A DNA stretch of 64,000 bases from Microbispora bryophytorum (GTDB taxonomy: Bacteria > Actinomycetota > Actinomycetes > Streptosporangiales > Streptosporangiaceae), in the NCBI RefSeq assembly GCF_006874465.1, contig NZ_VIRL01000001.1:744001-808000 (forward strand), read 5' to 3'. The translations under genes were made by a program, and so were the position numbers. How positions within the stretch are numbered: the first letter of the stretch is position 1; every line of letters begins with the position of its first letter. Below the pieces are notes generated by a model. That model saw nothing but the letters and a program-made list of their open reading frames with translations. It was not told the DNA's origin and did no database searches. Below, piece after piece: positions 52,436-54,546 of the stretch.

Positions 52436-53659
52436 TCACGACTCGGACTCCCACAGGGCTGCGGCGCGGGCCTCGACGAGACCGCCGATGCGGGCCAGCG
52501 CCTCGGCGGCGGGCATCGCGTCCAGGGCGCGGCCGTCGCGCAGGCGCAGCGCGACCTCGTCGCCCACGGCCTCCTTCGCGCCGATCACGGCCTGGTAGGG
52601 CGCCAGCCGGGCGGCCCGGACGCGGGCGCCCAGGCTGCCGTGCTCGGGCCCGGAGACCTCCGCCCGCAGGCCCAGCTCGGCGCAGCGCCGTACGAGCGCC
52701 TCGGCCTGCGGCAGTTCGGCCTCGGTCACCGGCAGGACCACCACCTGGGCGGGGGCGAGCCAGGCCGGGAAGGCGCCGCCGTACACCTCGATGAGGTGCG
52801 CCACGGCCCGCTCCACGCTGCCGATGATGCTGCGGTGGACCATGACGGGCCGGTGCCTGCCGCCGTCCGGGCCGATGTAGTGCAGGTCGAACTGTTCGGG
52901 CTGGTGGAAGTCGACCTGCACGGTGGACAGGGTGGCCTCCCGCCCGGCGCCGTCGGCGATCTGCACGTCGATCTTCGGGCCGTAGAACGCCGCCTCGCCC
53001 TCCGCGGCCTCGTAGGCCAGGCCGGAGCGGTCGAGGACGTCGGTCAGCATGGCGGTCGCCCGCCGCCACATCTCGGGGGCGGCGACGTACTTGCCGCCGG
53101 CCCCGGGCAGGGACAGCCGGTAGCGGACCGGGCGGATGCCGAGCGCGGCGTACGCGCGCCTGATCATCTCCAGGGCCCCGGCCGCCTCGGCGGCGACCTG
53201 GTCGAGGGTGCAGAAGATATGCGCGTCGTTGAGCTGGATCGCCCGCACGCGGGTGAGCCCGCCGAGCACGCCCGACAGCTCGGAGCGGTACATGCCGCCC
53301 AGCTCGGCGACGCGCAGCGGCAGCTCGCGGTAGCTGTGCGAGCGGGAGCGGTAGATCAACGCGTGGTGGGGGCACAGGCTCGGCCGCAGGACGACCTGCT
53401 CTCCCCCGAGGTCCATGGGCGGGAACATGTCGTCGCTGTAGTGCGACCAGTGCCCGGAGATCTCGTACAGCTCCCGTTTGCCGAGCACGGGGGAGTACAC
53501 GTGCCGGTAGCCCGCCCGCCGTTCGGCGTCGCGGATGTACTCCTCCAGGGTGTGCCGGATGACGGCTCCGTCGGGCAGCCAGTAGGGCAGCCCGGAGCCG
53601 ATCAGCGGGTCGGTGTCGAACAGGCCGAGCTCGCGGCCCAGCTTGCGGTGGTCGTGCAT
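52436..53659 (-). CDS. Short threonyl-tRNA synthetase lacking TGS and editing domains
   Basis: 407 aa against about 640-690 for normal ThrRS. It begins at the catalytic core (MHDHRKLGRELGLFD) and keeps motif 2 (GGMYRSELSG), the zinc ligands C96, H147 and H275, motif 3 (VHRSIIGSVERAVAHLIE) and the C-terminal anticodon-binding domain. The N-terminal TGS and Ser-editing domains are missing, so mischarged Ser-tRNA-Thr would not be cleared in cis. It is probably a second ThrRS, perhaps for starvation or for resistance to a ThrRS inhibitor. GAGGAG precedes the ATG. A Thr-codon leader and hairpin lie upstream. Confidence 0.9.
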   Translation of the reverse strand: MHDHRKLGRELGLFDTDPLIGSGLPYWLPDGAVIRHTLEEYIRDAERRAGYRHVYSPVLGKRELYEISGHWSHYSDDMFPPMDLGGEQVVLRPSLCPHHALIYRSRSHSYRELPLRVAELGGMYRSELSGVLGGLTRVRAIQLNDAHIFCTLDQVAAEAAGALEMIRRAYAALGIRPVRYRLSLPGAGGKYVAAPEMWRRATAMLTDVLDRSGLAYEAAEGEAAFYGPKIDVQIADGAGREATLSTVQVDFHQPEQFDLHYIGPDGGRHRPVMVHRSIIGSVERAVAHLIEVYGGAFPAWLAPAQVVVLPVTEAELPQAEALVRRCAELGLRAEVSGPEHGSLGARVRAARLAPYQAVIGAKEAVGDEVALRLRDGRALDAMPAAEALARIGGLVEARAAALWESES

Positions 53660-53706
53660 CGCGGTCTCCTCGCGTTTCGGCTGCGGCGAGGCGAGTGACC
53701 GGACGA

Positions 53707-53738
53707 CGAAGCCCCGGGGCGCTCGCCCCGGGGCTTCG
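53707..53738 (-). terminator. Attenuator hairpin before the short thrS
   Basis: CGAAGCCCCGGGGCG pairs with its complement across a 2-nt loop, a 15-bp perfect stem. It lies 13 bp after the leader-peptide stop and about 47 bp before the synthetase start. No U tract follows, as is typical here. Confidence 0.75.
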
Positions 53739-53751
53739 ATGAAAGTACGAA

Positions 53752-53802
53752 TCAGCGCGCCGGGACGGTCTCCGGCGTCGTCGTCAGGCAGGCGCGCATC
53801 AT
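53752..53802 (-). CDS. Threonine leader peptide
   Basis: A 16-codon ORF, MMRACLTTTPETVPAR, with three consecutive ACG Thr codons and a fourth Thr (ACC) three codons on. It has no ribosome site, but a promoter places transcription start at its first base, so it should be translated from a leaderless mRNA. A 15-bp hairpin and then the ThrRS gene follow. This is the layout of ribosome-mediated attenuation: scarce Thr-tRNA would stall the ribosome in the Thr run and change folding downstream. It is an inference, but four Thr in 16 codons before a ThrRS is unlikely by chance. Confidence 0.7.
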   Translation of the reverse strand: MMRACLTTTPETVPAR

Positions 53803-53809
53803 GCCGCGA

Positions 53810-53839
53810 ACGCTAGCACAGCCGTTGATCGTCTCTGAA
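53810..53839 (-). promoter_or_regulatory. Promoter of the thr leader
   Basis: On the minus strand TTCAGA (53834-53839), an 18-bp spacer and TAGCGT (53810-53815). The -10 box ends 7 bp before the leader ATG, so the transcript should begin at or next to the A of ATG. Confidence 0.55.
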
Positions 53840-53862
53840 CCGGTTTCACCGCACGCCTTCGC

Positions 53863-54546
53863 TTGGAGACCCTGCTGCGCGCGGGCGGCGTGCCCATGGA
53901 GCAGGTCGAGGCCACCGTCGCCGACCTCGCCGCGTACGCCGCCGAGACCGGCGCCGACCCGGACGAGGAGTTCGGGCCGGTCGGCGACTTCGCCGGGCAG
54001 TTGCTGGCGGCGCGGGCCCCCGAGGCCGACGCGGCGGCCGCCACCGAGTGGCGGTGGACCGCCGACATCTTCACCGACCGCCAGATGCTGGCCCGGCTCG
54101 GCGACCAGGGCTGGGAGATCGACCGGGTGGACCACGTCGGCAGGTTCATCAGCCACCGCGATCCGGAACGGCCGCAACGGTGGGAATACCGCAGGGAACT
54201 GTCGATCGGCGGTGCCGCGCCGGCCGCGCGGCTGGAGCCCGAGGGGTGGGAGCTCTGCGGCACCTGGATGTGCTGGCGATACTTCAAGCGGCCCAGGGCC
54301 GCCAGCGTGGGACCGGCCGCGCAGCTCGACTCTCCGCCCGCGGCCCCCGGCCGCAACGTCTTCTTCAGCCGGCGGTTCTACCTCGTGCTGGCCGTGATCC
54401 TGCTCGCCGTGGTCCTGCCCGGGATCCTGTGGCGGCCGTCGGACGACGACGGGCCGGGCTTCTTCGCCGGCATGGCCGTCGGAGGCTGCGTCGCGATCGC
54501 CGCCCTGGCGGTCATGTGGCTCTGGACGGCCCGCCGCCGTCGCTGA
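53863..54546 (+). CDS. HAAS-like and DUF2812-like membrane protein
   Basis: About 227 aa. The N terminus (TLLRAGGVPMEQVEATVADLAAY) resembles the HAAS fold; the middle (WRWTADIFTDRQMLARLGDQGWEI, WEYRRELSI, GWELCGTWMCWRYFKRP) resembles DUF2812. Two membrane helices follow (about 167-188 and 198-220), ending in RRRR. TTG 53863 is the only start that keeps the full N-terminal domain, since an in-frame stop lies at 53836; ATG 53896 is an alternative. It is divergent from the thrS leader. Proteins of this kind often accompany PadR regulators, but none is adjacent here. Confidence 0.6.
   Translation: METLLRAGGVPMEQVEATVADLAAYAAETGADPDEEFGPVGDFAGQLLAARAPEADAAAATEWRWTADIFTDRQMLARLGDQGWEIDRVDHVGRFISHRDPERPQRWEYRRELSIGGAAPAARLEPEGWELCGTWMCWRYFKRPRAASVGPAAQLDSPPAAPGRNVFFSRRFYLVLAVILLAVVLPGILWRPSDDDGPGFFAGMAVGGCVAIAALAVMWLWTARRRR

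Follow-up and report, generated by a model that had tools for sequence, protein, structure and literature searches.

What does a minute, threonine-rich ORF do in front of what looks like a spare threonyl-tRNA synthetase (ThrRS) gene, and which tRNAs might it sense? The question is raised by a locus of Microbispora bryophytorum contained in a 64,000-nt stretch of contig NZ_VIRL01000001.1 (positions 744,001 to 808,000; this whole stretch is called the window below). Positions are numbered from the start of the window, and (-) denotes the reverse strand.

A short ThrRS gene behind a leaderless Thr leader

The synthetase gene (52436..53659, (-)) codes for a protein of 407 residues. It matches the equivalog model TIGR00418 with 435 bits for a cut-off of 384, and it scores above the cut-offs of PF00587 (class II core) and PF03129 (anticodon-binding). 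The protein is composed of the catalytic and anticodon-binding domains, without the N-terminal TGS/editing part, and it aligns over almost its full length with solved ThrRS cores among its PDB relatives. By class, it is a second, short ThrRS of predicted activity. The preliminary description of this DNA had called it second, rightly, as the genome also encodes a separate ThrRS of 661 residues, which has no Thr leader. The nearest named relative of the short gene among the best 80 of 523 relatives is that of Microbispora rosea (98%), and 9 of 15 Microbispora genomes harbour such a gene. The protein is low in Thr, with 9 of 407 residues in the window compared with 5.8% in a sample of 184 proteins from this genome.

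Upstream of the gene, whose Shine-Dalgarno (SD) sequence is GAGGAG at 53671-53666 (-), lies an ORF of 16 codons and a stop that codes for MMRACLTTTPETVPAR (53752..53802, (-), ATG at 53802). We refer to it as thrL and to the synthetase gene as thrS2. A -10 element, TAGCGT (53810..53815, (-)), is found 7 nt 5' of the ATG, and a leaderless start is predicted. The ORF contains three adjacent ACG Thr codons (53776..53784, (-)), the presumed sensor codons, and a fourth Thr codon, which is ACC. A hairpin denoted T (53707..53738, (-)) begins 13 nt 3' of the thrL stop; it has 14 perfect bp and a GAGC loop, and no U-tract follows it. The promoter with its predicted start at the ATG, the 16-codon ORF with Thr-Thr-Thr plus a fourth Thr and the 13-nt distance of the hairpin from the stop had all been described beforehand and were found again; the hairpin had been given 15 bp, one more than we count. 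A divergent ORF of 227 residues (53863-54546, (+)) with no Pfam or NCBIfam match stands beside the leader. An Rfam scan of positions 53500-54000 of the window returned 12 weak matches, the best at 22.4 bits for a gathering score of 50, and scanning seven related loci matched no Rfam family.

The leader is conserved in front of short ThrRS genes

We selected 80 loci with the ThrRS protein as the sole query, and 79 of these are preceded, at a distance of at most 400 nt, by a short ORF that encodes a TTT run; near relatives are over-represented because the loci are the best 80 of 523 relatives. The exception (L054) comes with only 102 nt of upstream sequence. A class-wide sample of 394 genomes yielded 59 short ThrRS genes (E 1e-140 or better). 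Directly upstream of 57 of them, on the same strand and at a median gap of 41 nt, we found a match of at least 38 bits to a covariance model of thrL, called R1. The other two genes start 55 nt and ~106 nt from a contig end, so that their leaders could not be seen. Conversely, two of 59 leader matches in this sample are devoid of a short ThrRS gene: for one (L117, genome G245), the contig ends 118 nt away and the remaining sequence shows no ThrRS start, and the other (G243) stands before a full-length thrS. The training set of R1 consisted of ACG-bearing leaders; the 80 loci and the 59 class genes, by contrast, come from protein searches. The family samples gave leader matches at 1e-5 or better in 87 of 200, 117 of 200 and 7 of 35 genomes, and the phylum sample gave matches at 1e-6 in 6 of 296 genomes, one of which lies outside the class (G760) and has its leader before a short ThrRS gene. 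Thus, leader and gene occur together far beyond chance, and thrL, as judged from these alignments, is a conserved leader directly upstream of short ThrRS genes. Conservation of the Thr codons and of the hairpin among homologues, which the preliminary description had named as support for an attenuator, is indeed what we found at the loci picked by protein and in the class sample.

R1 matches below 38 bits were treated as noise (11 fetched, none showing the core), and those that scored 38-48 bits when the families were searched form a mixture of real leaders, relics and other elements. Parsing of 258 loci gave 220 with a complete leader and start; the 38 failures are due to contig ends, decay of the copy, the presence of other genes or odd sequence, and include the 11 noise loci. 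The leader counts below rest on the 220 parsed rows, which contain 208 distinct leaders. Twenty stretches (L348-L367) are represented by inspection of L348 alone.

In the 208 distinct leaders, the start codon follows the -10 element by 6 nt (36 leaders) or 7 nt (172 leaders), in a search that allowed 5-9 nt and preferred 6-7. The start is in frame with the Thr run in 207 of them, and the frame is open to the conserved stop in 202. The peptides range from 15 to 28 codons, with whole-codon insertions mainly between the MKRA start and the Thr run. The window leader begins with MMR, most homologues with MKR or MQR. Such conservation of the frame argues that thrL is translated.

Leader and gene use opposite Thr codons

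In the leaders, the last two positions of the Thr run are ACG in 202 of 202 cases, and the first is ACG in 194 of 199 (ACT in 3, ACC in 2). The short ThrRS genes have the reverse preference. The 206 distinct genes contain 2,028 Thr codons, of which 1,964 are ACC, 52 ACT, 9 ACG and 3 ACA; ACG and ACA are both absent from 196 genes, and the nine Thr codons of the window gene are all ACC. The 12 ACG/ACA codons in 2,028 contrast with proportions of 35-42% in samples of six genomes. Other codons are ordinary in the short genes (Arg CGG 43%, Ala GCG 39%, Val GTG 46%, and Pro normal too). The avoidance is also unusual for the host genomes. In 400 kb of the M. bryophytorum genome plus the window, ACG makes up 39% of the Thr codons, and none of 251 genes with at least 10 Thr is free of it; 80-kb samples of five other genomes have 29-38% ACG, and a single ACG-free gene (in G234) among 208 of that kind. 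The fifteen full-length thrS genes of Microbispora have 3 to 7 ACG codons each. ACG is read by tRNA-Thr CGU and UGU, and ACC and ACT by tRNA-Thr GGU; genes for all three were found in the M. bryophytorum genome, in which 30 of 56 tRNA hits were scanned. A codon skew of another kind is seen at the N-terminal Arg of the leaders, which is CGC in 157, CGT in 26, CGA in 1 and CGG in none of 184, vs the 43% CGG of the short genes.

Full-length thrS genes provide a comparison. Of 57 loci, 34 could be parsed and 23 could not; a leader was defined as a peptide of at most 40 residues with TT, starting 5-9 nt after TAnnnT and within 420 nt. The eight genes with a leaderless Thr leader have 4 ACG/ACA in 183 Thr codons, compared with 142 in 676 for the 26 genes without (Fisher P 6e-12, a value that ignores kinship, five of the eight belonging to one genus). 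These Thr-rich leaders (e.g. MARVFWSTTTPGISRRLSLAR) occur in four genera, before genes with little or no ACG (L196/L368 in G243, L369, L372-L374, L376/L209 in G404, L379 and L391). The Thr run is not pure ACG in L372, L373, L374 and L379, and L391 has T-S-T. Five full-length genes in which no leader was found are also low in ACG/ACA (L381, L382, L383, L389 and L401; 4-9%).

Predicted attenuator-type folds around the stop codon

The transcript may adopt mutually exclusive folds around the end of thrL. Segment 1 (GCGCGCC, 53791..53797, (-)) is complementary to 53755-53761. The sequence with which the ORF closes, GTCCCGGCGCGCTGA, hardly varies, even at third codon positions. With the third Thr and Pro codons, it can form a protector hairpin, P, whose 5' arm CGCCGG (53772..53777, (-)) overlaps these two codons and whose 3' arm is CCGGCG (53758..53763, (-)). 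Alternatively, it can pair with the 5' arm of T, as GUCCCGGCGC:GCCCCGGGGC, with nine pairs and one mismatch. The strands of the latter helix are segment 2, the putative antiterminator strand, which is the near-invariant GTCCCGGCGC of the Val-Pro-Ala codons (53757..53766, (-)), and segment 3 (53725..53734, (-)).

We computed folds of the transcript before the 3' arm of T is made, with a ribosome placed on it. The 2:3 pairing was predicted in all 187 distinct sequences with the ribosome on any Thr codon, and in none of them with the ribosome at the stop. Without a ribosome, 2:3 appeared in 138 of the 187 and P in 75. In a comparison with synonymous recodings, which covered the first 25 distinct peptides, the stability of P stood out (median fraction 0.05); 2:3 was modestly better in energy (median fraction 0.14, with 3 of the 25 peptides not exceeding 0.05) and not above average in L187, L189 and L240. 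Covariation can lend 2:3 no support, because segment 2 is near-invariant.

By contrast with segment 2, the stem of T varies by paired changes. In 98 distinct hairpins, position 5 is GC in 74 and CG in 20, position 8 CG in 86 and TA in 8, and position 11 AT in 74 and GC in 8. We looked for a U-tract in the 8 nt that follow T in these hairpins and found a median of 2 U, with at least 5 U in 2 of 98. Because T is conserved and the U-tract absent, we call the arrangement attenuator-like and do not claim a classical transcription attenuator.

An alternative fold between GACGACG of the Thr codons and CGTCGTC at the 3' edge of the hairpin had been put forward in the preliminary description. The complementarity exists in the window; as a general switch it was discarded, since CGTCGTC follows 7 of the 98 distinct related hairpins.

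Two covarying helices at the Shine-Dalgarno sequence

Downstream of T, an anti-SD strand, GGTCACTCGCC (53690..53700, (-)), can fold over the thrS2 SD region, GCGAGGAGACC (53663..53673, (-)), to form a helix that we call S. The same anti-SD has a second possible partner: the T loop and the end of the 5' arm (GGGCGAGUG) are complementary to CACUCGCCC, in a helix that we call M. In the window, the 5' strand of M, an SD-mimic, is GGCGAGCG (53720..53727, (-)), and M contains one mismatch.

Both helices covary among homologues. For M, the strands of the same locus pair with -18.4 kcal/mol vs -16.5 kcal/mol when permuted, and none of 1,000 permutations was as good (n=220); with one sequence per loop class (n=34), the values are -18.4 and -15.0, again with 0 of 1,000. 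For S, they are -18.8 and -16.4, with 0 of 1,000 permutations as good, and this also held when each SD class was represented by a single sequence (n=139); a minor weakness of that test is that its two S strands share 4 nt. Counting 4-mers at fixed positions over distinct loop and anti-SD types gave a weaker signal, with P values of 0.16 and 0.06 for full complementarity and <0.01 for mean pairs. We relied on the energy permutation because the 4-mer counts varied with where the regular expression landed. Examples of concerted changes are GCAAGUG with CACUUGC and an SD of GCAAGG in L014, GGGCGAACG with CGUUCGCCC in L193, GGGGCGCAC with GUGCGCCCC in L239, and GGGCCGAGUG with CACUCGGCCC in L303. 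The covariation indicates that helix S can sit on the SD and that helix M can capture its partner.

Equilibrium folding gives S and M different standings. S is present in the minimum-energy folds of the consensus and of the window, both without a ribosome and with the ribosome at the stop; when the consensus is folded with a ribosome stalled at Thr, the SD is covered in the best structure by pairing other than S. The mean predicted probability that the SD is unpaired is 0.31-0.41 at all ribosome positions for the consensus, the window and L014, three of the sequences folded. T together with S beats M-containing nested folds by a median of 14-16 kcal/mol, and freeing segment 2 shifts this by ~2; in L193, the difference is 1.2 with the ribosome stalled at Thr1 and 7.8 at the stop. 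This deficit rules out M as an equilibrium structure. As M lies 14-16 kcal/mol above the best nested fold, it must act kinetically or be minor; if at work, it would have to be established while the RNA is being made, once the formation of T is held back.

As the SD helices covary and T lacks a U-tract, the initiation of translation may be in part what is controlled. The passage of RNA polymerase into the synthetase gene on Thr limitation, as proposed in the preliminary description, is not established by these features.

A WblC-like box in the promoters

Among 203 distinct upstream sequences, we counted 100 instances of a GAAA whose first letter lies 37-40 nt upstream of the -10 element's end. 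The full GAAAWY motif is found in 52 of the 203, always at those positions, and TTGAC in none; the -35 is weak. In the WblC-activated promoters of Streptomyces coelicolor, GAAAWY precedes the -35 by 3 nt and the -10 is TANNNT (PMC7157823). By this resemblance, about half of the thrL promoters have a WblC/WhiB7-like box at a fixed spacing. The window has the near-match GAAACC (53842..53847, (-)) at this conserved position, with C in place of W, so that the full GAAAWY is absent. The WblC regulon table includes a thrS2 (PMC7157823), which we infer to be the short ThrRS gene. The thrS2 promoter is probably under WblC/WhiB7 control, in which case the gene would answer ribosome stress and a shortage of Thr-tRNA together.

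Proposed mechanism and its rivals

We hold with moderate confidence that thrL, a leaderless leader read by the ribosome, attenuates the spare ThrRS and senses the charging of the ACG-reading tRNA-Thr, and that its gene remains translatable via tRNA-Thr(GGU). The response to starvation is deduced from the sequences and would proceed as follows. With the ACG-reading tRNA charged, the ribosome would reach the stop codon and cover segment 2, and T would form; the anti-SD would remain on the SD and little ThrRS would be made, an effect to which some termination at T might or might not add. With that tRNA uncharged, the ribosome would stall on the ACG run, block the 5' arm of P and free segment 2, which would engage the 5' arm of T while this is being transcribed and delay T. 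The T loop strand could then pair with the anti-SD as helix M, which would open the SD, and ThrRS would be translated from its ACC codons.

Could these features be explained otherwise? That thrL is a spurious small ORF before the ordinary terminator of a neighbouring gene has a probability that we regard as practically nil: GC-rich hairpins are common in such genomes, and an automatic promoter and terminator scan called no element at the locus, but the next upstream ORF listed is divergent, and the conservation of the leader in both samples refutes this reading. Another proposal is that TTTPESVPAR itself stalls the ribosome as an arrest peptide, irrespective of Thr charging. Its C-terminal PESVPAR residues do look conserved as a protein would be; nevertheless, conservation is at the nucleotide level, the Val, Pro, Ala and Arg codons being near-invariant at their third bases, and the residues encoded by the P loop vary. 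In L062 and L125, the 3' end of the leader is in another reading frame and encodes other residues, and the segment 2 RNA is still kept. We rejected the arrest peptide on account of these two frame-shifted leaders and rate it as very improbable. For the codon partition, one may argue that the genes use ACC for high expression or translation speed and that the leader has ACG only for RNA pairing. The third Thr codon does overlap hairpin P, the five full-length genes named above, in which no leader was found, are low in ACG/ACA as well, and some Thr leaders of full-length thrS genes mix ACC or ACT into the run. However, no such bias affects the other codon families of the short genes, the first two ACG codons lie outside P and yet are nearly always ACG, and in full-length thrS the bias follows the presence of a leader. 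We consider this explanation improbable, if less so than an arrest peptide.

A further rival is classical transcription attenuation alone, in which T would be a terminator that needs no U-tract or is helped by NusG or Rho, segment 2 would block it, and the SD helices would be incidental. The geometry of P, 2:3 and 3:4 is that of trp/his-type attenuators, the stem of T is conserved with paired changes, and equilibrium folding makes the openness of the SD almost independent of where the ribosome sits. PMC1262725 and PMC13236596 describe other actinobacterial leaders in this way. The near-complete absence of U-tracts argues against it, as does the covariation of S and M beyond permutation, which such a model does not need. 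All in all, we find it unlikely, though a serious contender.

More tentatively, and with somewhat less than an even chance in our estimation, the locus could be an emergency circuit partitioned by isoacceptor, in which an ACG sensor, a rescue enzyme written in ACC/ACT, a gate made of the SD-mimic loop and the WblC/WhiB7 ribosome-stress regulon act together. With the sensor in ACG and the rescue enzyme in ACC/ACT, the spare ThrRS would be switched on when the ACG-reading tRNAs are uncharged or destroyed, and it would be translatable although they are. The gate on its output would be a loop that imitates the hidden Shine-Dalgarno sequence and draws off its partner. If true, this would be a natural case in which the codon choice of a gene evolved to complement that of its own leader. 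The circuit would explain the making of a spare ThrRS when the normal one fails, and through thrL the ribosome-stress response of actinobacteria may be connected with a sensor of tRNA. The ~200 distinct leader-gene pairs with opposite Thr codons, together with the like avoidance in full-length thrS genes behind a Thr leader, offer a natural experiment on selective charging and make isoacceptor-specific sensing directly testable by codon swaps.

Relation to known systems

Translation attenuation of the erm type and SD-sequestering leaders are known, in which stalling on the leader frees a hidden SD. Compared with the erm type, the inducer of thrL would be uncharged tRNA and not a ribosome drug, and thrL has an extra hairpin with an SD-mimic. 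With the trp, his and thr attenuators of Escherichia coli, it shares regulatory codons and protector, antiterminator and terminator-like segments, so arranged that a stall would free segment 2; it differs by its leaderless ORF, the lack of a U-tract, the covarying SD helix and a loop that competes for the partner of the SD.

The kind is not new, because one example, thrL of Streptomyces lividans TK24, was printed in 2021, with a leaderless start from RNA-seq (PMC8079986). The statement in the preliminary description that no Thr-codon attenuator was described for an actinobacterial ThrRS is superseded by that report. According to the excerpt of PMC8079986, thrL-thrS of S. lividans (SLIV_19412/19410) has a leaderless MKRVRPFLETTPGFVPAR before thrS, a single hairpin without U-rich sequence and the MKR...TTP..VPAR pattern. 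In comparison with this printed peptide, our set has the same pattern: a leaderless MKR...TTP..VPAR ending at the stop, a ThrRS gene, and a hairpin after the stop. The S. lividans example concerns one strain, two Thr and an unclear termination, and conservation, an SD switch, the codon partition and the promoter box are not among the features given in that excerpt (PMC8079986). In the open-access literature, we found no paper giving the codon partition, the SD helices or a WblC-like box for thrL. The family described here thus appears to go beyond the known kind in having no U-tract, an SD helix and a loop that competes with it, Thr codons in the sensor that are opposite to those of the gene, and a WblC-like promoter box. 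The leaderless Thr leader and the short ThrRS had been correctly described beforehand; the fold named there proved local, and the ACG partition, the WblC-like box and the possible SD switch had been missed.

The leader peptides before actinobacterial trpS, leuS and alaS are alike in preceding synthetase genes, several of them leaderless, and differ in the amino acid, as far as the excerpts of PMC1262725 and PMC8079986 go. The excerpted 2005 survey reported no conserved Thr structure (PMC1262725). Selective charging theory, as outlined in PMC1183508, holds that leaders should use the codon of the most starvation-sensitive tRNA; in thrL, the output gene also avoids that codon almost wholly. The thr leader of E. 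coli uses ACC (PMC1183508), in contrast with the ACG of thrL.

Decayed, duplicated and divergent copies

Six loci (L232, L253, L283, L284, L285 and L286) contain apparent decayed leaders or relics of leader and synthetase; in L284, a stop interrupts the leader and only a late piece of the synthetase is left. L257 (G580) is a natural leader loss: hairpin T, the anti-SD and the ThrRS start are kept, and in place of the leader ORF and promoter, which we did not see, there is other coding sequence. In G005, the short ThrRS is split into two parts ~20 kb apart, residues 28-405 at C26:62359-63492 (-) and residues 1-33 at 83181-83279 (-). In-frame TGA codons reported in ThrRS genes by the genome search proved to be the natural stop overrun by the alignment (L156, L163 and L166, the three of six opened loci for which the gene was printed). 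G621 has two equal-scoring leader copies in opposite orientation near one contig end, at C1:26629-26730 (+), fetched as L288, and C1:53016-53117 (-). Lastly, two weak R1 matches (L223 in G460 and L233 in G498), in leader orientation and ~200 nt from the locus start, correspond to aromatic-rich leader peptides (MQ..FWRFYGYRPL...) in front of what is presumably a DAHP synthase gene.
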